A stretch of 64,000 bases of DNA from an uncultured Salinisphaerales bacterium (GTDB lineage Bacteria > Pseudomonadota > Gammaproteobacteria > Nevskiales > CAJXLF01): contig CAJXLF010000009.1 of NCBI GenBank assembly GCA_913055805.1, positions 62,001 to 126,000 of the forward strand. Direction: 5' to 3'. Of the stretch, positions 25,956-36,643 are shown in pieces (within the stretch, counting starts at the first letter, position 1; each line of letters opens with the position of its first letter). The notes beneath the pieces are model-generated. The model saw only the letters and a list, made by a program, of their open reading frames with translations, made no database searches and was not told where the DNA came from. The position numbers and the translations under genes were made by a program.

Positions 25956-26398
25956 TCACTGCTCCCGAATTCGCCCTGATCTGCTCCGGCGCCTTCCTGC
26001 TGGTGGGTATGCTCACCGGCATCTGGAAGTATCGTCACATGATGACCAGCGCCAATGCTGAAGCGCCCTACTACGTGAATATCGCGCACCGCACTTCGCT
26101 GATGTACAGTTTCGCCACCCTGGTGCTCTACGCCATGGCGCAGCACAGCGTATGGAGCAATACAGTCAACTTCCTTGCCGTACTGGTGAGCGTTGGCTTT
26201 TATGCCGCCGCCATCGGCACCTATGTGCTCCATGGCCTGTTGCGCGACACCGATAATCAGTTACAGAAACCGCACAAGCTCGGGCATGCCGAACTGCCTT
26301 CATGGGCCATCGGGACATTTATGCTGGGATTGATCGTTGGTGAGGTCGGCGGCGCCGCGGTGCTTTTCTCCGGCATGGTGCTTGGGGTTATTTCCTGA
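25952..26398 (+). CDS. four-helix membrane protein, function unknown
   Basis: A 148-residue protein with four predicted membrane helices (about 8-25, 50-66, 72-96, 119-142). The loop KYRHMMTSANAEAPYYVNIAHR after helix 1 is conserved-looking and polar. Its start overlaps the nitrilase stop by four bases. No family is recognised; coupling to the nitrilase suggests a role near that enzyme, such as a transporter component or membrane anchor. Confidence 0.65.
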   Translation: MITAPEFALICSGAFLLVGMLTGIWKYRHMMTSANAEAPYYVNIAHRTSLMYSFATLVLYAMAQHSVWSNTVNFLAVLVSVGFYAAAIGTYVLHGLLRDTDNQLQKPHKLGHAELPSWAIGTFMLGLIVGEVGGAAVLFSGMVLGVIS

Positions 26399-26411
26399 AG
26401 GGAACGCTTCA

Positions 26412-27023
26412 ATGTTACGACTTTACGATTACTGGGAATCCGGCAACTGTTACAAGGTTCGCCTGCTACTCTCGTTGCTCGGCATCCCCTACGAGCGCAT
26501 ACACATCGATATCATGCAGGGCGAATCGCGCACCCCCGGCTTTCTGGAGAAAAACCCGAATGGCCGGGTGCCGCTGCTGGAATGGCCGGATGGCCGCCGC
26601 CTCGCAGAGTCGAATGCCATTCTCTGGTACCTGGCAGAAAAAACCCGGTTCTTGCCGGATGACCCATGGCAACGGGCCAACATCCTGCAGTGGATGTGCT
26701 TCGAACAGTACAGCCATGAACCCAACATCGCAGTGGCGCGCTTCTGGCACTTCGCAAAACTGGCCGAAAAAAACAGGGATGCGCTGCCTGCCAAAATGAA
26801 GAACGGGTATAAGGCCCTGCAGGTTATGGATGACCACCTGGAATCACAGCCCTATTTCGGCGCCGACTGCTATACCATCGGTGATATCGCCCTGTACGCG
26901 TACACTCATGTGGCGCATGAAGGTGGTTTTGATCTGTCTGGGTTCCCGGCCATAGGCAACTGGCTGAAACGCGTTTCGTCAGAGGCCGGCCATGTATGCA
27001 TCACGGATGGAATGGGAATATAA
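26412..27023 (+). CDS. glutathione S-transferase family protein
   Basis: A 203-residue GST with N-terminal MLRLYDYWESGNCYKVRLLL, in which Ser10 or Cys13 is the probable thiol-activating residue, and NGRVPLLEWPDGRRLAESNAI containing the cis-Pro and glutathione-binding Glu-Ser. The C-terminal helical domain is complete. It is third in the nitrilase-membrane protein-GST operon; GAAGGGAA precedes the ATG. A disrupted SnoaL-like gene follows directly. Confidence 0.88.
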   Translation: MLRLYDYWESGNCYKVRLLLSLLGIPYERIHIDIMQGESRTPGFLEKNPNGRVPLLEWPDGRRLAESNAILWYLAEKTRFLPDDPWQRANILQWMCFEQYSHEPNIAVARFWHFAKLAEKNRDALPAKMKNGYKALQVMDDHLESQPYFGADCYTIGDIALYAYTHVAHEGGFDLSGFPAIGNWLKRVSSEAGHVCITDGMGI

Positions 27024-27048
27024 GGACTCTGCGCTGGATGGTAATCCT

Positions 27049-27468
27049 GTGACGACGACAACTTCCGGAAAAGATTTCGCGCAACAGTTCGCCGATGCCT
27101 GGGCAACCCCCACACCGGAAGGGCTGGTCGCTCTATTACATCCGGATGTCACTTTGTTGCAGCCGCATCTGCCCCCGATCCACGGCAAACAGGCAGCATT
27201 GTAGGAGTTCCGGAAACTGTTCCGCTGGATGCCCGGCACCCGCGGCGAAATCGACCGCAGCTGCAGCGAAGGCGATCTGGTGTATATCGAATGGCGCCTG
27301 ATCTTTCCCATTGGCAAACGCGGCGTAACGTTACCTGCGGTAGACCGCTTCCTGCTCAAGGATGGCCTGGGCCATGAACGCCGCGTGTTTTTCGACCAGA
27401 TGCCGCTGATACTCGCCGTGCTCGTCCGGCCCTGGTTGTGGCCAGGGTTTCTCAGATATCGGCTCTAA
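27049..27468 (+). pseudogene. SnoaL/NTF2-like protein gene interrupted by an in-frame TAG
   Basis: One frame encodes an NTF2-fold protein: FAQQFADAWATPTPEGLVAL and LHPDVTLLQPHLPPIHGK, then after a TAG at 27202-27204, EFRKLFRWMPGTRGEIDR and GDLVYIEWRLIFPIG to the stop at 27468. Both halves are in the same frame, so a single base change has split the gene. A GTG at 27049 is the likely original start; an ATG at 27007 is an alternative. Expression of a 51-residue fragment, or restart at the ATG at 27229, cannot be excluded. Confidence 0.75.
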
Positions 27469-27506
27469 CCCCCTCTCCCTAACCCTCTCCCGCGAGGGGT
27501 GAGGGG
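27469..27506. repeat. C-rich/G-rich extragenic palindrome
   Basis: CCCCCTCTCCC and CCCTCTCCCGCG are followed by GAGGGGTGAGGGG. The arrangement can fold into a hairpin and resembles dispersed extragenic palindromes found in many genomes. It starts right at the pseudogene stop and may act as its terminator. Confidence 0.5.
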
Positions 27507-27663
27507 ATTGTTTCATTTATCGGATCTCCCGCCAGGGGAAAGTGGATTCCCGATCAGTCACGTGGATTACCTACCGATCGGTTTTTTTAATGAAAGCAGC
27601 ATAACCATCGGCTATCCTCAGCAGCATACCAATAGAAACCACTGTGCGAGACAGGGAGAAACC
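27507..27663. promoter_or_regulatory. upstream region of PQQ dehydrogenase
   Basis: No gene is visible in this stretch. It should hold the promoter for the dehydrogenase-PqqU operon; a possible weak dyad, GATCAGTCACGTGGATTACC, lies at about 27553. The open frame running through it into the dehydrogenase lacks protein character before the signal peptide. Confidence 0.3.
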
Positions 27664-29823
27664 ATGAGTAATCGGCGACTGGCACTGGCAGGGGCAACAT
27701 GCCTCCTGCTGACACTGGCATTGGGCACGGGCTGTGACCGCGACAAGGAACCTGCAGCCGACAAGACAGAAGAAAAAGCGAAGGCCGTGACCGCCGAACG
27801 CATCATCCAGGCCGACAAGGAGCCCGGCAACTGGATGAGCCATGGCCGCACCTACGACGAGCAACGTTTCAGTCCGCTAGACCAGGTCAACAGCGAGAAC
27901 GTGGGTGAACTCGGCCTGGCCTGGAGCTACAAGCTGGATGTGGACCGCGGCACGGAAGCCACCGCCCTGGTGGTCGACGGCGTCATGTACACCACCGGCG
28001 CCTGGAGCATTGTCTATGCCCTGGATGCCAGGACCGGCGAATTGCTGTGGAAATATGATCCCGAAGTGCCACGCGCCGTGGCCGGGCGCGGTTGCTGCGG
28101 CGTAGTCAATCGCGGCGTCGCTATCTGGGAAAACAAACTCTACCTGGGCACATTTGATGGCCGGCTGGTCGCACTGGATGCCAAGACCGGTCGTGAACTC
28201 TGGTCTGAAGTCACAGTAGACCAGAACAAGAACTACACCATCACCGGTGCGCCCCGCGTCATCAATGGCAAGGTGCTGATTGGCAACGGCGGCGCCGAAC
28301 TCGGCGTGCGCGGCTACATCAGCGCCTACGACGCCCGCACCGGTGAAATGATCTGGCGCTTCTACACGGTGCCGGGTGATCCCTCGCAGCCGCAATCCAA
28401 TGCCGCTCTGGAAGAAGCGGTCAAGACCTGGCACGGCAAGCTCTGGTATGAACAGGGCGGCGGCGGCACGGTGTGGGATTCCATGGCCTACGACCCGGAA
28501 CTGGACCTGCTGTACATCGGCACCGGCAACGGTTCGCCCTGGAACATCAAATACCGCTCGGAAGGCAAGGGCGACAACCTGTACCTGTCCTCCATTGTGG
28601 CGCTGAAACCTGATACCGGTGAATACGTCTGGCATTACCAGACCACACCCGGTGACACCTGGGACTTCACCGCCACCCAGCACATCATCCTGGCCGACCT
28701 GGAAATTGCCGGCAAAAAACGCAAGGTGCTGATGCAGGCGCCCAAGAACGGTTTCTTCTATGTCATCGACCGCGCAACCGGCGAACTGATCTCGGCCAAC
28801 AATTTCGTGCCCATCAACTGGGCCAGCGGTATCGACATGGAAACCGGCCGCCCGATCAAGACCGGCGAAGCCGACTACAGCAAGGAACCCAAGCTGGTCA
28901 TGCCCAGCCCTTTCGGCGCGCATAACTGGCACCCCATGTCCTATAACCCGCAGACCGGACTGGTCTACATCCCGGCGCAGATCACCTTCATCGTGCACGC
29001 GGATCTGGGTCAACCTCCGGCCAGCGCCATCAATCTCTGGAACGTGGGTATCGCACCGTTCGACATCCCGGACAGCGAAGACGAAATGGCCAAGATGGGC
29101 GAAGGCTTCAAGGGCCTGCTGCTGGCCTGGGATCCGGTAAAACAGGAGGCGGCCTGGAGTGTGGAATACATTTCTCCCTGGAACGGCGGCACCCTGAGTA
29201 CCGCCGGCAATCTGGTATTCCAGGGTACGGCCGATGGCCGCGTCACCGCCTATGAAGCCGGCAGCGGCAAGCTGCTGTGGGAATCACCGGCTAACACCGG
29301 CGTCATTGCCGCCCCCATGACCTATACCGTAGACGGCGAGCAGTATGTGACTTTCATGGCTGGCTGGGGCGGCGCCTTTCCGCTGGTGACCCCGGGGCTG
29401 GAACCGGATATCAAGGTACAGGCCGAAGCCCGGGTACTGACGTATAAACTCGGCGGTGATCAGTCATTGCCGCCGGCCAAACATGATCCGGTGCCGATCC
29501 CCACGCCGCCCGAGCTCACCGCAGACGCCGAGCAACTGGCTCTCGGCAAATTCTTCTACCAGGGCTTATGCGCCACCTGTCATGGTGTTTCCGTCGTCAG
29601 CAGCAGCGTTACTCCGGATCTGAGATACCTGTCTGCCGAGACACATGAACAGTTCAATGCCATTGTCGCCGGCGCACGCGCGGACAAGGGCATGCCCGCC
29701 TTCGGCCACCTGATTCAGCCCGAGCAAATGGAAGCCATTCATCAGTACATCATCAAACGCAGCCACGACCTGGTGAAACGGGCCGAGGAGATGAAAGCAT
29801 CTGCTGAACCGGAAGTTGAATAA
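27664..29823 (+). CDS. PQQ-dependent quinohemoprotein alcohol dehydrogenase, type II-like
   Basis: A 719-residue periplasmic enzyme. The N terminus is a signal peptide ending LALGTGC, possibly a lipoprotein site, though the -3 residue is atypical. The eight-bladed propeller carries W-motifs (ALDARTGELLWKYD, ALDAKTGRELW), and the vicinal disulfide Cys144-Cys145 in GRGCCGVVNRG is diagnostic of PQQ alcohol dehydrogenases. The C-terminal cytochrome domain has CATCH at 636-640. It would oxidise alcohols and pass electrons internally from PQQ to heme c. GGGAGAAACC precedes the ATG. Its stop is three bases before the PqqU-like gene. Confidence 0.95.
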   Translation: MSNRRLALAGATCLLLTLALGTGCDRDKEPAADKTEEKAKAVTAERIIQADKEPGNWMSHGRTYDEQRFSPLDQVNSENVGELGLAWSYKLDVDRGTEATALVVDGVMYTTGAWSIVYALDARTGELLWKYDPEVPRAVAGRGCCGVVNRGVAIWENKLYLGTFDGRLVALDAKTGRELWSEVTVDQNKNYTITGAPRVINGKVLIGNGGAELGVRGYISAYDARTGEMIWRFYTVPGDPSQPQSNAALEEAVKTWHGKLWYEQGGGGTVWDSMAYDPELDLLYIGTGNGSPWNIKYRSEGKGDNLYLSSIVALKPDTGEYVWHYQTTPGDTWDFTATQHIILADLEIAGKKRKVLMQAPKNGFFYVIDRATGELISANNFVPINWASGIDMETGRPIKTGEADYSKEPKLVMPSPFGAHNWHPMSYNPQTGLVYIPAQITFIVHADLGQPPASAINLWNVGIAPFDIPDSEDEMAKMGEGFKGLLLAWDPVKQEAAWSVEYISPWNGGTLSTAGNLVFQGTADGRVTAYEAGSGKLLWESPANTGVIAAPMTYTVDGEQYVTFMAGWGGAFPLVTPGLEPDIKVQAEARVLTYKLGGDQSLPPAKHDPVPIPTPPELTADAEQLALGKFFYQGLCATCHGVSVVSSSVTPDLRYLSAETHEQFNAIVAGARADKGMPAFGHLIQPEQMEAIHQYIIKRSHDLVKRAEEMKASAEPEVE

Positions 29824-29826
29824 CGA

Positions 29827-31812
29827 ATGCCTTACCGCCCGCTGATTGCGGCGGCACTTCTGAGTGCCGCCGCCGGTTCGGCCCTGGCCGTCGATGACAA
29901 ACGCCTTGATACGCTCACTGTGGTGGTGACAGCGGACGAGACTGACAACCTGCCGCTGGCGGTCAGCCACGTGGAAGCGCACGACCAGCCTGCCCCCAGC
30001 GAACAAAGCCTGCAGGATTTTCTCGCTCCCGCACCCGGCCTGTTCGCCCAGAATCAGGACAACGCCGCCCAGGGACTACGGGTTTCCATCCGCGGCTTCG
30101 GTACCCGGGCTGCCTTTGGCATACGCGGCATTCAGGTGCTGGTGGATGGCGTGCCGATGACTCTTCCTGATGGCCAGACCGAACTCGACGCCATTGATCT
30201 GGGCCTGCTGGAATCCGCTGAAATCGTGCGTGGGCCTTCGGCCACGCTGTTCGGCAATGCGGCAGGAGGCGCTATTCTGCTGCATACCCGGAAACCTTCG
30301 GAGTCGCCTGAAGCACGCCTGGAATTACAGGGTGCTTCCTTCGATCATTACCGGGCACGTCTGGAAGGTAGTGGCCGCGTAGGCAGCGCCCATCTGCTGG
30401 GCGCTATCACTGCTTCGGATATCGACGGCTTTCGTGAGCATTCACAAACCGAAACACAGCTGCTGAATGCGCGCATGACCCAGGCTGTGGGCCCCGGCCA
30501 GCTGAATGCTTTCGTCAGTGCACTGGATATCACATCACAGGACCCCGGCGGCCTGACGGCCGCACAGGTGGACCAGAACCGCCGGGGAGCAGCCAGCGGA
30601 AACCGGCAATTCGACGCCGGCGAAACCATAGAACAACAGAGAGTAGCACTGAACTGGTCCGGGCCATTGGGGTATTGGGGTGTGCATGCAACCGGCTATG
30701 CAGGGCAACGCGATTTTGCCAATCGCCTGCCCTTCACAGACGGTGGCCAGGTCAGCTTCGACCGCAACTTCGCCGGCATGGGCGCCACAGTGTCGCGGCG
30801 CTTCGAACTTGGTGGTCTGGCGCATCGGTTCAGCGCCGGCTTCGATGCCCAGCTGCAGCAGGACGACCGGCGCCGTTTTGATAACAATGACGGCGCCCGC
30901 GGCGCGGCCACGCTGGCACAGGATGAAGAAGCCGCCGGTGCCGGTGTGTTTGTGCGCGACAGCATTGCCCTTGCCCCCGCCTGGGAAACCAGTATTGGCC
31001 TGCGCTACGACACGCTGAGCCTGGAAGTGGATGACCGTTTCCTGGCCGACGGCGATGACTCCGGCTCACGCGACATTGACGATGTCAGCGCTGATATCAG
31101 CCTGTCGCACTGGCTTGGCAACCGTATGATCTATGGTCGGCTGGCCTCGTCTTTCGAGACACCCACCATCAATGAACTCGCCAACCCGGCCGGCGGCGGC
31201 TTCAATCCGGATCTGGGTTCCACCGAAGCCCTGAACCGGGAAATCGGCATCAAGGGCGCCTGGAACCAGCTGCGTTACCAGATGGCCGTTTACCGGGTGA
31301 CGGTAGACGACGAACTGCTGCCCTTCGAACTTCCGGGTCAGCCGGGGCGCAGTTTCTTCCGTAATGCCGGTGAAACCGAACGCGAGGGTATTGAGATTGC
31401 CGGGGAGTACGACATCAATTCGATCTGGCGGCTGGACGCCAGCGCCAGCTACGCCCGCAACGAATTTGACGGCGGCAGCCTGGACGGAAACGAGCTGCCC
31501 GGCATTCCCCGGCAGACAGCCTGGCTGTCGCTGACGCGCCGCCAGGGCGGCTGGCAAAACGCCCTGATCGCCAGTCATACCGGGCGGATGTATGCAGACG
31601 ATAGCAACAACACCGAAGTAGACAGCTACCAGCTGCTGCACTGGCAGAGCGCATGGCAACCGGCAGGATCAGCCTGGAGTGTGCAAGCCGCGATAGATAA
31701 CCTGCTGGACAAGGACTACAACGACAGCGTCCGCATCAATGCCTTCGGCGGCCGCCATTTTGAGCCGGCGGCAGGTCGCACTTACCGCCTGGGTCTCAAG
31801 GTCAGAATGTAA
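29827..31812 (+). CDS. pqqU: TonB-dependent receptor, PqqU (YncD)-like PQQ importer
   Basis: A 661-residue outer-membrane receptor with signal peptide (ending SALA), plug domain and beta-barrel ending in a motif with terminal RLGLKVRM. Segments match what I recall of E. coli YncD/PqqU: RGFGTRAAFGIRGIQVLVDG, VPMTLPDGQ, DPGGLTAAQ, SFETPTINELANP and GRHFEPAAGRTYRLGL. PqqU imports pyrroloquinoline quinone. It follows the PQQ dehydrogenase after three bases and so is in the same operon, which supports that substrate. The stop overlaps the convergent pilus tip gene by 11 bases. The substrate assignment still rests on similarity and context. Confidence 0.85.
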   Translation: MPYRPLIAAALLSAAAGSALAVDDKRLDTLTVVVTADETDNLPLAVSHVEAHDQPAPSEQSLQDFLAPAPGLFAQNQDNAAQGLRVSIRGFGTRAAFGIRGIQVLVDGVPMTLPDGQTELDAIDLGLLESAEIVRGPSATLFGNAAGGAILLHTRKPSESPEARLELQGASFDHYRARLEGSGRVGSAHLLGAITASDIDGFREHSQTETQLLNARMTQAVGPGQLNAFVSALDITSQDPGGLTAAQVDQNRRGAASGNRQFDAGETIEQQRVALNWSGPLGYWGVHATGYAGQRDFANRLPFTDGGQVSFDRNFAGMGATVSRRFELGGLAHRFSAGFDAQLQQDDRRRFDNNDGARGAATLAQDEEAAGAGVFVRDSIALAPAWETSIGLRYDTLSLEVDDRFLADGDDSGSRDIDDVSADISLSHWLGNRMIYGRLASSFETPTINELANPAGGGFNPDLGSTEALNREIGIKGAWNQLRYQMAVYRVTVDDELLPFELPGQPGRSFFRNAGETEREGIEIAGEYDINSIWRLDASASYARNEFDGGSLDGNELPGIPRQTAWLSLTRRQGGWQNALIASHTGRMYADDSNNTEVDSYQLLHWQSAWQPAGSAWSVQAAIDNLLDKDYNDSVRINAFGGRHFEPAAGRTYRLGLKVRM

Positions 31813-32758
31813 TGGTCACGGTAATGGTGTCGCTGTAGGTGCCGGGGGACGGCAGGGTCTGCAGCGGTACCCGGCCATAGACGGTCAGATTCTGCTGAGA
31901 GCCGCTACCGGTTCCGGTCTGCGTGTTCAGGCCAAGGGTGTTGCCCCAGCGCAGCAAGCGACTGGAATCCCGGTACAGGTCGTATTGAATGTAGTTACTG
32001 CCGCTTTTCATGCGCCTCAGGCCCAAGAGATCATTCATGCCATTATTCAGCCCCACTTCATAGGCGGCGCCATTGGTACAGGTCACGGCAATACTGGAAG
32101 CGGCGTCGGCCGCGGCGCCAAGGCTGGAATGCGAGCCAAAGTCCATGTTGCTGGCAGAAATCGAACACTGCGGCTGCACCGTGGCCAGCGCCGAAAAACT
32201 GAAGTTCGCCGTACCCTCGTTACAGTTAGTGGGTGACGAGCCATCAGCCCAGCGAATACGTGCATTGATGCCGCTGAATGCGTTGCTGTAACTGCCCGGC
32301 ACCGCTGAACTCTGACCACCGAACACACGGCCGTAAATCTGGATGGTATCGATAATGGTGAACAGGCCCAGCAGGTCATAGCTTCTGACGGTTGTGTAAG
32401 TGGGATAGGCGTAGGACGGATGCCCCCAGATAATGCTGCGGGCGGAATCGGTGTAAAGGTTGAAATTCAGATAGCCGCCACTGCCATTGCCCATGCGCCG
32501 GGGGCTGATCGTGCCATCTCCGGCTGTTCCCTCGCCGATATCCACGCAGATTCTCACTTCGCTCGATAGATCCAGCAGCCCTTTGGAGCAGGTGAAAGTC
32601 AGGGTAGCCGCAACATCCACGTTGCCTCCGAATGGGTCGACCGTGCCAAAATTGATATTCGACAGACTGGCCGAGCAGTTGGAACTGGCATATACAACCT
32701 GAGGGACCAATGCGGCCCACGTCAGGCAAAGGGCGAATATGTATTTCCCTACTCGCAT
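31802..32758 (-). CDS. two-domain spore coat U (SCPU) protein, CsuE-like pilus tip
   Basis: A 318-residue secreted protein with a signal peptide ending VYA, then two consecutive spore-coat-U (SCPU) domains (CSASLSNINFGTVDPFGG and CSISASNMDFGSHSSLG), each with the paired cysteines of archaic pilins. It ends with a YSDTITVTITF donor-like strand. In Csu pili the two-domain subunit CsuE is the tip adhesin. Its start overlaps the usher stop, making it last in the pilus operon. Confidence 0.85.
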   Translation of the reverse strand: MRVGKYIFALCLTWAALVPQVVYASSNCSASLSNINFGTVDPFGGNVDVAATLTFTCSKGLLDLSSEVRICVDIGEGTAGDGTISPRRMGNGSGGYLNFNLYTDSARSIIWGHPSYAYPTYTTVRSYDLLGLFTIIDTIQIYGRVFGGQSSAVPGSYSNAFSGINARIRWADGSSPTNCNEGTANFSFSALATVQPQCSISASNMDFGSHSSLGAAADAASSIAVTCTNGAAYEVGLNNGMNDLLGLRRMKSGSNYIQYDLYRDSSRLLRWGNTLGLNTQTGTGSGSQQNLTVYGRVPLQTLPSPGTYSDTITVTITF

Positions 32759-35121
32759 ACGAATGGCCCCAGTGTCGGCACCGTGCCGGGCTTATGTGTA
32801 TAGCTGAAACTGACCAGGCAGTCCTGTTCGTCCGGCAACTTGACCTGCAAACGGTTCTCGGCTTCCAGCCCCTGAATATACAGCTGCCCGTCATAACCCA
32901 CATAGCCGCTAACGGTCTCGCTCGTATTCAGGTAGGCCGGCTGGCCAACCGGCACATCACTGCCGTCCGGCATCTGCAATAGCAGGGTAGCGGATTTTCT
33001 GCGCCGCAGATGGAATGTGGCCTGTGCCCCTGCCCGCTCGGAAGGCACAATCCGCTTGTCCACCGCGTCGAAATAAACATCCTCCGGCAGACTGCCGGGA
33101 TCAATACTGATGCGGTTGTCCTGATAGCTGCTCAAAGGCGTCAACAGGTAATAACCACGGCTGTCCGTGTACCCGATTTCGCGGTTCTCCAGCAATACCG
33201 GCACATCTGCAGTACCGTTGGTCGAAACCAGGGCAAAGGCATCGGAAATGCGGCGGGACAGAAACAGATCGTTATCCATGCCGATCAAGGCCCCTGACAG
33301 ACTGGCGAAATACCGCTTCTGTTCGGCAAACTCGGCCACCCCGGCATTCAGCTGGCCGTAATCTCCGCGATAGCCCGACTCCAGTTGCCAGAGGTCACGA
33401 TCCCCGTTCTCCGCCAGCGCCCGCCAGCCAAATCCGCCATCAATGGGGATGGGCCGATTGGCCTGGAAAGCTTCCACCTGGCTGTCACCCTGACGCGAGG
33501 CCGACAGGGCATAGGAGTTACCGCCCCAGGCATAATTCAGGCCGGCAAACACATTGGTCCGGTCCTCATCATCCAGGTCTTCCGTCACGCTGGCGAAAAA
33601 GTTGAGCCGCATGCTCAGGGGCAGGCTGTAAAAGACGGAGGCCAGTCTTGAATCGTCGGACAGCGCTCCGGTTTCCTGCGACTTGAGCCGCACGTATCCC
33701 ATGGTGATGGCGCCAAGATGCTGTCCCAGACGCAAACTCAGAAAAGCCCTGTCCGTACGCCGGAATGGCAGGCGTCCATAGAAGCTGGCCACATCATGGT
33801 AATCCTCACTGGCCTGCGTGGTACTCAGGTTCACGCCGACCCAGCGCCCATGCCATTCGTAACCGATCTGGCCCTGCTGGCCCAGCTGTTCATCCGAACT
33901 GCTCAGCGAAAACGCCGCATTGAAAACCCCGTATTCTTCCAGGCGCAGCGCCGTACCACCGCCCAGCATGGCCAGGCCCCGGGTGGCCTCGGCATGCCCC
34001 TCCAGCGTAAAGAACTCGTTGAGACCATGGCGAACAGAGGTGCTGCCGATCAGATCATCCCCGTAATCGGCGGATTTGACGCCAAAGTTCTGCCGCACAT
34101 AACCCAGCTCCACTGAATAGTCTGTCAGCCCGGGCCGCAATAACTGACTGCTGGCATAGACAGGCAGCACGGTCACCGACTGTCTGCCCAGAGTGTCGGT
34201 CACGACCAGGGTGGCCTGGCCGCGTTGATTGACACTCGGCAGTGCAGCGATTTCAAACGGCCCGGAGGTCACGCGGTCCTGAAACTGACGCACGCCGTTC
34301 ACATACAGCTCGACGGTCGAGGGTAATGCGGCCTGGCCCGCGAATTCCGGTATAGGGAAGGTGATCAGATCCGGTTGCAGGCTGAAATTGCGTGAATACT
34401 GCAGACCGGCGAAGCGCGTGGGCCGGCTCCATGAGAGACCACGGGTAATACCATCACCTAACTGAAAAGTCGTCAGTGCTTCAGGGTCGGAATAACGCCA
34501 GGCCGTGTCCAGGCGCACCCAGGGCTTGATACCGGTCTGAGGTTCGGTAAACCCCAGCATGTCATTGGTCAACAGACCGAAATCACCGAACACACGGGTC
34601 TCGAGCAAACCGTTGATGCGGGTGTTCATACCTTCCGGACGGTCGGCAAAAACATCATAGTTGATCACCACACCGGCAGCTGAATCCACTTCCAACGGAG
34701 CCATTACCGGCTGATTCAGGCTGCGGGTCTCAAGATTCAGGGCATCCAGAGGCGCCTGCAACTCGAGTATCTGCCGGCCCTGGTCGAGCCGGGCAGTCAA
34801 ACCGCTGATGCTCTGCAGGCGCACCCAGCCTGTCGTCCGGGGCAGCTTGAAAGAAAGCGCCTCCAGCGCCTTGGCCGGCATATGGAAGGATTGGCCTTGC
34901 TGAATAACATGAGCGAGGTAACCGGTGGCGGACTGGTTGAGCACCACCTCAAGATAATAATCGGTGCCTTCAGGCGGGTTGGGAGCATCAGGCAGCATAT
35001 CCAGGTTGTCGCCGGAAGCCATGACAGCCCGGGCGCCGAGGATACTGAGGACTACGATGACAAGAACGCTGTCAGCGAGCCTGCGCATCCCCGCCGATGC
35101 TGTGCTCGACAAGCTCCCCAT
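32749..35121 (-). CDS. fimbrial outer-membrane usher protein (CsuD-like)
   Basis: A 790-residue usher. A signal peptide or membrane anchor at about residues 14-36 is followed by the N-terminal domain (YYLEVVLNQ), the 24-strand barrel with plug region (VELYVNGVRQFQDRVTSGPF) and C-terminal domains (YVGYDGQLYIQGLEAEN). It would export and assemble the SCPU subunits in the outer membrane. The ATG at 35121 has AGGG five bases upstream and overlaps the chaperone gene by 50 bases; an ATG at 35088 is an alternative. Confidence 0.93.
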   Translation of the reverse strand: MGSLSSTASAGMRRLADSVLVIVVLSILGARAVMASGDNLDMLPDAPNPPEGTDYYLEVVLNQSATGYLAHVIQQGQSFHMPAKALEALSFKLPRTTGWVRLQSISGLTARLDQGRQILELQAPLDALNLETRSLNQPVMAPLEVDSAAGVVINYDVFADRPEGMNTRINGLLETRVFGDFGLLTNDMLGFTEPQTGIKPWVRLDTAWRYSDPEALTTFQLGDGITRGLSWSRPTRFAGLQYSRNFSLQPDLITFPIPEFAGQAALPSTVELYVNGVRQFQDRVTSGPFEIAALPSVNQRGQATLVVTDTLGRQSVTVLPVYASSQLLRPGLTDYSVELGYVRQNFGVKSADYGDDLIGSTSVRHGLNEFFTLEGHAEATRGLAMLGGGTALRLEEYGVFNAAFSLSSSDEQLGQQGQIGYEWHGRWVGVNLSTTQASEDYHDVASFYGRLPFRRTDRAFLSLRLGQHLGAITMGYVRLKSQETGALSDDSRLASVFYSLPLSMRLNFFASVTEDLDDEDRTNVFAGLNYAWGGNSYALSASRQGDSQVEAFQANRPIPIDGGFGWRALAENGDRDLWQLESGYRGDYGQLNAGVAEFAEQKRYFASLSGALIGMDNDLFLSRRISDAFALVSTNGTADVPVLLENREIGYTDSRGYYLLTPLSSYQDNRISIDPGSLPEDVYFDAVDKRIVPSERAGAQATFHLRRRKSATLLLQMPDGSDVPVGQPAYLNTSETVSGYVGYDGQLYIQGLEAENRLQVKLPDEQDCLVSFSYTHKPGTVPTLGPFVCE

Positions 35122-35842
35122 TGATTACTGCCCTGATGGATTTTGTTCTTGTAACCACGTCGGCGTCGACATTATCCAGCCGCCATTCGCGAGTCTGGCC
35201 CGCAAGCACATACCCGAAAAGTCCGTCCTTGATGGTCATTTGCTTTGGCGGGCTCATGAAAATGAGGTCCGCAATCTGGGCGCTCTTGCTGCCGTTGTTC
35301 TGCAGCGACAGAACCACACCCGTCTCGGTGTTCCTTAGCGACCACTGCAAATCCACATCCGGATTCAGCTGCATTTTCGCGGACGGCCACACAAACAATG
35401 GCAGGGAGTAACGAAATACGAAGTTCACACCCTGCTCTCCGGAGCCATTGGCCACCGGCAGTTCATCTACCAGAATGCGGAAGCTGGCCTCCCGCTGCGC
35501 AGCGGCATTCACTTGCGCCGGCCGGCGAATCACCCGAACCAGTTGCCGCTCCCCCGGAGGGATACTGACCATCGCGGGACTCAGGGCGAAGGCCTGGCTG
35601 GCCTGAAGCACTTCCCGGTCCTGTTCCTGGGCCCAGCCAAACAGGCGTACCTGCGCCTGAATAGTGCGTTCGCCGTTATTGATAAGCCACAAGCGGTGTG
35701 ACTGGTCGCCGGGTTCGAACACAAGGTTCGTCGGCGTGACCTGAAGACTGGCTGCATACAATGGCAAGCTGACCACCCAGATTCCCAGTACGGGAACCAG
35801 GCGGCCAGCAATTTTGCCAATATGCCGTATGAGCGTCTTCAT
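35072..35842 (-). CDS. fimbrial periplasmic chaperone (PapD-like, CsuC-like)
   Basis: A 256-residue chaperone with signal peptide ending LYA. The first immunoglobulin domain starts SLQVTPTNLVFEPGDQSHRLWLINNG; a subunit-binding strand is visible in RQLVRVIRRP, and the second domain contains NNGSKSAQIADLIFM. It delivers pilin subunits to the usher. It lies six bases after the pilin gene and overlaps the usher gene by 50 bases. Confidence 0.92.
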   Translation of the reverse strand: MKTLIRHIGKIAGRLVPVLGIWVVSLPLYAASLQVTPTNLVFEPGDQSHRLWLINNGERTIQAQVRLFGWAQEQDREVLQASQAFALSPAMVSIPPGERQLVRVIRRPAQVNAAAQREASFRILVDELPVANGSGEQGVNFVFRYSLPLFVWPSAKMQLNPDVDLQWSLRNTETGVVLSLQNNGSKSAQIADLIFMSPPKQMTIKDGLFGYVLAGQTREWRLDNVDADVVTRTKSIRAVINGELVEHSIGGDAQAR

Positions 35843-35848
35843 TAATCA

Positions 35849-36346
35849 TCAGAATGACACAGTTACGGTCACGGTGTCTGTAAAGATACCGGTAGAAACA
35901 CTCTGGCCACTGGGCACACGGCCATAGACAGTGAAGGCCTTGATACCGTCCACGTCACTGCCATCGTCACCCTGGGTCGTGGTGCCGCCGATATCATCCC
36001 AGCGGGTCGTACGCGAGGAGTCAGTGTACATATCGTAGTTCACATAGTTACCCGAACCGTCATGCAGACGGCGCTGGGTCACATCCGCGTTCACGCCGTC
36101 GTCCAGACCAATCTGATAATCCGAACCGATGGTACAGGTCGCCGTTACCGTCGACTGGGCATCGTTATTGGATGCCAGAGAAGGCACGTCAACGAAGGTC
36201 AGCGGCGTCGCCACCACCAGACAACTTTCCAGAACCGTCAGCGACACGGTAAACGTGGTGGTGCTGTCGGCCGCATAGGCCGAACCGCCCAACATGCTCA
36301 TACTCAAGGCCGACACAGCGGCAAAACGTTTAAAACCTTTCATCTC
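35849..36346 (-). CDS. spore coat U (SCPU) domain major pilin (CsuA/B-like)
   Basis: A 165-residue secreted subunit with one SCPU domain. The signal peptide ends SAYA; the mature chain starts with a TTTFTVSLTVLESC-like donor strand, has paired cysteines, and ends VSTGIFTDTVTVTVSF. GGAGG lies eight bases before the ATG at 36344-36346, so the longer frame from 36367 is less likely. It is first in the operon, as expected for the abundant shaft subunit. Confidence 0.88.
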   Translation of the reverse strand, partial: EMKGFKRFAAVSALSMSMLGGSAYAADSTTTFTVSLTVLESCLVVATPLTFVDVPSLASNNDAQSTVTATCTIGSDYQIGLDDGVNADVTQRRLHDGSGNYVNYDMYTDSSRTTRWDDIGGTTTQGDDGSDVDGIKAFTVYGRVPSGQSVSTGIFTDTVTVTVSF

Positions 36347-36643
36347 ATTAACCTCCAGGTTGAACATGGAAAGCCAGGCTTTCCTGCTGAACCGCCGGGC
36401 TCCCCCCTGGGAAAACCCTGTTTTGTTGGCTGTTCAACTGATTGTTATTTTTGGCTTTCCGGAGGTTTTCAGGTATCCGTCAAATTACCGTCGCTGAGTG
36501 AGCCCTGGACTCATAAATGAATAGGAAAAGGCTTACAAAACCCTTACAGAATCATGCGTGCACCAGAGGCAACCGGATTATCGAAGTCAGCGGAAGGGCA
36601 GTTCAAAAATGCCCGCTGACAGCTTCGAAAGCTTGAGCGAAGG
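36347..36643. promoter_or_regulatory. pilus operon upstream region with three GGAAAGCC copies
   Basis: No gene is visible. GGAAAGCC-A-GGCTTTCC forms a perfect 17-base palindrome at 36368-36384, and one further half-site (GGCTTTCC on the + strand) lies at 36453-36460. These may be a regulator site or a leader hairpin for the pilin message. The remainder to the LysR gene is featureless to me. Confidence 0.45.

Follow-up and report, generated by a model that had tools for sequence, protein, structure and literature searches.

A type II quinohemoprotein dehydrogenase gene followed directly by a PqqU-family receptor gene: a probable PQQ-salvage operon in an uncultured Salinisphaerales bacterium

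Does a PQQ-dependent dehydrogenase whose gene directly precedes that of a TonB-dependent receptor obtain its cofactor from outside the cell, through this receptor? The question is raised by two adjacent genes in a 64,000-nucleotide stretch of DNA from an uncultured Salinisphaerales bacterium (contig CAJXLF010000009.1, positions 62,001 to 126,000, of assembly GCA_913055805.1), hereafter referred to as the window. PQQ scavenging through PqqU has already been published (Munder et al. 2025, PMC12124388), and only 23% of PqqU producers encode PQQ synthesis (PMC12124388).

The open reading frame of the dehydrogenase is complete, running from an ATG at 27664 to a stop codon at 29821-29823, and encodes a PQQ beta-propeller followed by a C-terminal heme c domain of the CxxCH type. 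TIGR03075 matches the product with 673.9 bits (model cut-off 480), and profile searches also returned PF01011 and Cytochrome_CBB3. In a PDB sequence search, ADH-IIG (1yiq) was the nearest solved structure (919 bits), with ADH-IIB (1kv9, 801 bits) and the Comamonas testosteroni enzyme qhADH (1kb0) also among the closest. All three share with the window enzyme the domain order, the vicinal cysteines, the heme motif and the active-site residues; the metal and catalytic positions Glu212, Asn289 and Asp334 align with 1yiq. The vicinal Cys144-Cys145 and the heme c described in the first-pass annotation are thus both present, the latter as a CATCH motif. By its domains and residues the protein is a type II quinohemoprotein alcohol dehydrogenase, for which PQQ-dependent oxidation is predicted, presumably with alcohols as substrate. 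The residue two positions beyond the catalytic aspartate (D+2) separates lanthanide-type from calcium-type PQQ dehydrogenases. With Thr336 at this position, the active site is expected to be calcium-type rather than lanthanide-type; for XoxF, a conserved Asp is cited for the rule in a study on xoxF3 clusters (PMC10875860).

ADH-IIG, ADH-IIB and the C. testosteroni enzyme are soluble periplasmic proteins, whereas the window dehydrogenase is a predicted lipoprotein and, unlike these three, is paired with an importer. In G040, G060, G061, G063 and G066, five other genomes of the order, the dehydrogenase paired with the receptor likewise has an N-terminus recognized by eye as lipobox-like, while several distant or unlinked relatives carry ordinary signal peptides, as judged in the same way. 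The window enzyme is probably lipid-anchored in the periplasm. The genome carries a second quinohemoprotein homolog (G000:C10:144418-146352; L141:6329-8455, minus strand), which is 47-49% identical to the window enzyme. It lacks the vicinal cysteines, with Trp-Gly in this region, and reads GGADFG in place of the GGAELG of the window enzyme; WDFN and CSICH are kept. Related homologs, 46-49% identical, are common across the order.

Table 1. Positions of the two genes and of their functional residues in the window (E. coli residues are those of PqqU).
Feature	Position	Strand	Basis
Type II quinohemoprotein alcohol dehydrogenase, 719 aa	27664..29823	+	TIGR03075, PF01011, Cytochrome_CBB3, PDB matches
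Probable lipoprotein signal peptide, lipobox LGTGC, Cys24, Asp25 at +2	27664..27735	+	by eye
Vicinal Cys144-Cys145	28093..28098	+	aligned to CC of 1yiq and 1kv9
Catalytic Asp334 and Thr336 at D+2 (WDFT)	28663..28671	+	alignment
Heme c motif CATCH, residues 636-640	29569..29583	+	
Likely axial Met677 of heme c	29692-29694	+	
TonB-dependent receptor, PqqU family by signature, predicted PQQ importer, 661 aa	29827..31812	+	
F97 (E. coli Y99), stacking residue	30115..30117	+	PMC12124388
E119 (E. coli Q121)	30181-30183	+	
E266 (E. coli K274), proposed metal-site position	30622..30624	+	PMC12124388
R295 (E. coli R304)	30709..30711	+	PMC12124388
N299 (E. coli Q308)	30721-30723	+	
R348 (E. coli R365)	30868..30870	+	PMC12124388
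R508 (E. coli R536)	31348..31350	+	PMC12124388

The second gene encodes the receptor. Its top NCBIfam model is PqqU (NF041535); the 299 bits reached there exceed the 165 bits of the runner-up and lie far below the 1200-bit equivalog cut-off for PqqU. The best PDB sequences, 6v81 and 9c4o, were matched with an E-value of about 1e-76 (next best 4e-21), and the same two entries, both E. coli PqqU (YncD), came first in a fold search (TM 0.88-0.89), ahead of FecA, when the predicted structure (mean pLDDT 83, pTM 0.85) was used as query. In a reciprocal comparison with five E. coli receptors, PqqU was picked with 261 bits against 58. A quick tree (SH-aLRT 97-100, with long outgroup branches) placed the receptor and E. 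coli PqqU in one clade, with FhuA, BtuB, CirA and FepA outside and a paralog from the same genome (C2) branching at the base of the PqqU side; within the PqqU clade, the subclade of the window receptor differs from the enterobacterial one. Identity to E. coli PqqU is 30%, and other receptors in some genomes of the order reach 43-47%.

The published PqqU signature consists of Y/F/W99, R304 and R365 in E. coli numbering (Munder et al. 2025, PMC12124388). Aligned to PqqU, the window receptor has this signature in full (F97, R295, R348) and also keeps Q84, as Q82, and R536. The set is missing from FhuA, BtuB, CirA, FepA and two paralogs of the same genome, and is conserved across the PqqU clade. 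With E. coli PqqU the window protein shares, in addition, the fold and the type of outer-membrane TonB-dependent transporter. The likeness to PqqU noted on first reading is borne out by profile, sequence and fold; a closer resemblance to a siderophore or vitamin receptor, which would have spoken against it, was found neither by these three approaches nor in the tree. The receptor is filed here as a PqqU-family homolog on the strength of its residue signature, not as an equivalog of the enterobacterial protein by the strict model, and very probably brings in PQQ.

The most serious alternative is that the receptor is a distant PqqU relative importing another cargo, such as an iron or lanthanide metallophore, a vitamin or the alcohol substrate. 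TonB receptors often switch substrate with little change in fold, the identity to E. coli PqqU is as low as stated above, and other bacteria have lanthanide receptors, LutH for example, that serve PQQ-enzyme systems (PMC12997753). We nevertheless consider another cargo improbable: the PQQ-contact signature is kept here and missing from FhuA, BtuB, CirA, FepA and the two paralogs compared, and the linkage to PQQ dehydrogenases recurs in several lineages. A lanthanide receptor, in particular, would have no obvious use with a partner dehydrogenase of the calcium type.

We then consider whether the strain could make PQQ itself. No match to pqqB, pqqC or pqqD was found in the genome (95.7% complete, 21 contigs; searches covered pqqB to pqqE), and pqqE gave only a weak match of 63.6 bits (cut-off 381), which is typical of other radical SAM proteins. 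The searches work, since the pqqC model matches 39 of the 85 genomes of the order and pqqE exceeds its cut-off in 35 of the 85, the window genome not among them. At family level, the pqqC result refers to one genome, which makes up the family. The initial observation that no PQQ synthesis genes lie near the dehydrogenase-receptor pair holds and, for pqqB, C, D and E, extends to the whole genome, where a cluster located elsewhere would have overturned the proposed dependence. By the absence of pqqBCDE from a 95.7%-complete genome, the strain is a predicted PQQ auxotroph. Synthesis through an unsequenced cluster or some other route, with the importer recapturing leaked PQQ, is the alternative here. 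The few percent missing from the genome leave room for it, recapture is one of the roles proposed for PqqU by Munder et al. (PMC12124388), and linked pairs also occur in Pseudomonas with pqqC. Set against the failure to detect any of the four genes in this genome, and pqqC in the seven other genomes with a strict pair, own synthesis appears highly improbable.

The stop codon of the dehydrogenase gene is separated from the receptor ATG at 29827 by three bases, CGA, in agreement with the spacing given in the first-pass annotation, and the two genes are presumably cotranscribed. Promoter and terminator scans gave nothing beyond chance level, and an Rfam search of 26000-33000 returned no matches. 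Directly upstream of the dehydrogenase gene, at 27022-27470, lies a frame that appears SnoaL-like by eye and is broken by an in-frame TAG, a probable pseudogene. It is followed, at 27470-27506, by a C-rich stretch, CCCCTCTCCCTAACCCTCTCCC, and then CGCGAGGGGTGAGGGG; this resembles an intergenic repeat element, is present as a single copy in the window, and no repeat was found in a search of 27430-27560. On the other side, a chaperone-usher type cluster on the minus strand (31802-36367), with an usher and proteins carrying the spore coat U domain, converges on the receptor gene; the last gene of the cluster extends 11 bases (31802-31812) into the end of the receptor gene.

Among the 85 genomes of the order, a receptor gene directly behind the dehydrogenase gene on the same strand was found in the window genome (G000) and in G040 (Sinimarinibacterium flocculans), G060, G061 (an Abyssibacter MAG), G062, G063 and G066; one further MAG, L075, also carries a strict pair. 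Six genomes of the order besides that of the window keep the arrangement strictly, so the pairing is not due to chance. Strict adjacency is found in four or more family groups within the order, and linkage to the dehydrogenase shows about seven changes on the receptor tree, indicating that it was gained or lost repeatedly. That the two genes are functionally unrelated neighbours is hardly credible in view of this conservation and repeated change, even though most Pseudomonas-type loci have a subclass receptor and no dehydrogenase, the receptor gene often lying, by eye, downstream of an aceK-like gene.

In none of the eight strictly paired genomes (seven of the order and L075) was pqqC found, and in S. 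flocculans neither pqqC nor pqqE was found above cut-off. The other receptor-bearing genomes of the order comprise nine with pqqC and 11 without; taken over all genomes of the order with a receptor, the association between absence of pqqC and strict pairing is no more than suggestive (Fisher p 0.06, relatedness ignored). A wider survey covered 80 named loci. There, the majority of the subclass receptors, mainly those of Pseudomonas and Stutzerimonas, have no such dehydrogenase nearby. A looser linkage, in which some 1.1-1.3 kb separate the receptor from a related dehydrogenase upstream of it, occurs in Pseudomonas japonica, P. defluvii, P. otitidis and a Paucimonas MAG, all of which have pqqC. 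Coupling as a general marker of auxotrophy is ruled out by the pqqC-positive Pseudomonas. The earlier suggestion that physical coupling points to dependence on scavenged PQQ therefore stands in part: the salvage reading is supported and no pqq genes were found, but coupling alone is insufficient, and auxotrophy is deduced from the missing synthesis genes, not from the coupling. Two further arrangements were observed. In four Pseudomonas-type loci (L091, L096, L098 and L105), a gene of the Phenol_MetA_deg family lies between dehydrogenase and receptor, an assignment (PF13557) checked in L091 only. On the Alteromonas macleodii plasmid pTE101a (L002), a PQQ-dependent dehydrogenase and, some 6 kb downstream, a PqqU-like receptor belong to a single gene run; transposase genes lie beyond the receptor, and this is possibly a mobile PQQ-use cluster.

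We put the probability that the dehydrogenase-receptor pair is a cofactor-salvage operon at roughly 85%. This reading draws on features computed directly, namely the gene identities, the spacing, the conserved adjacency, the PqqU signature and the lack of detectable pqqB, C, D and E; counted against it were the low identity and sub-cut-off score of the receptor, the unpaired receptors of the subclass, the pqqC-positive Pseudomonas, the incomplete genome and the no more than suggestive pqqC association. In such an operon, the receptor, powered by TonB, would capture external PQQ and translocate it through the outer membrane to the periplasm. There, the co-encoded dehydrogenase, exported and probably lipid-anchored, would bind PQQ together with Ca2+, oxidize alcohols and hand the electrons over to the respiratory chain by way of its own heme c. 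No inner-membrane PQQ transporter would be needed, because the enzyme would work in the periplasm. Given that the searches found no genes for PQQ synthesis, the strain would need PQQ from outside the cell for this dehydrogenase; both the import by the receptor and this dependence are predicted from sequence.

The binding pocket of the receptor differs from that of E. coli PqqU at K274, Q121 and Q308, which are replaced by Glu, Glu and Asn, respectively. In a set of 112 receptors, the residue aligned with E. coli position 274 is Glu, Gln or Lys. Receptors with Glu274 nearly all have Asn308, and an acidic residue at 121 was found only with Glu274 (62 of 62). All 20 receptors with a linked dehydrogenase belong to the acidic-121 class, as do 42 unlinked ones. 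Each of the three positions underwent only two to four changes on the tree; most of the pattern is thus accounted for by shared ancestry, and the apparent covariation of 121, 274 and 308 is not strong statistical evidence. For homologs with K274E, Munder et al. put forward metal co-import, suggesting that it would take further substitutions as well (PMC12124388). The acidic residue at 121 and Asn308 may be hypothesized to be candidates for these. An import of PQQ as a metal complex by the Glu274/acidic-121/Asn308 subclass, delivering Ca2+-PQQ to the partner dehydrogenase, is a speculative and rather unlikely extension of the salvage operon.

Both protein families are known, and the combination of PqqU and a quinoprotein without PQQ synthesis, as in the window genome, occurs among the PqqU producers of Munder et al.; the synteny considered in their paper is that between PqqU and the synthesis genes rather than a dehydrogenase (PMC12124388). 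E. coli pqqU is divergent from yncE with no PQQ dehydrogenase adjoining, whereas the window receptor gene lies directly behind one. Like the window pair, the xoxF3 clusters combine a PQQ dehydrogenase with a TonB-dependent receptor; they differ in encoding a lanthanide methanol dehydrogenase, in belonging to other phyla and in a receptor substrate that is unassigned there (PMC10875860). No description of a PqqU-quinohemoprotein operon was found in the accessible literature. Within this literature, the pairing of importer and enzyme and the pocket variant look new.

The locus would represent a small natural unit that encodes a cofactor importer jointly with the enzyme it supplies, and the pairing gives a divergent PqqU subclass a likely client. 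The co-occurring pocket substitutions offer specific residues for examining whether some PqqU proteins import PQQ with a bound metal, a question that the 2025 study did not settle. Moreover, the predicted PQQ dependence is directly testable in a cultured relative, as S. flocculans carries a similar pair.
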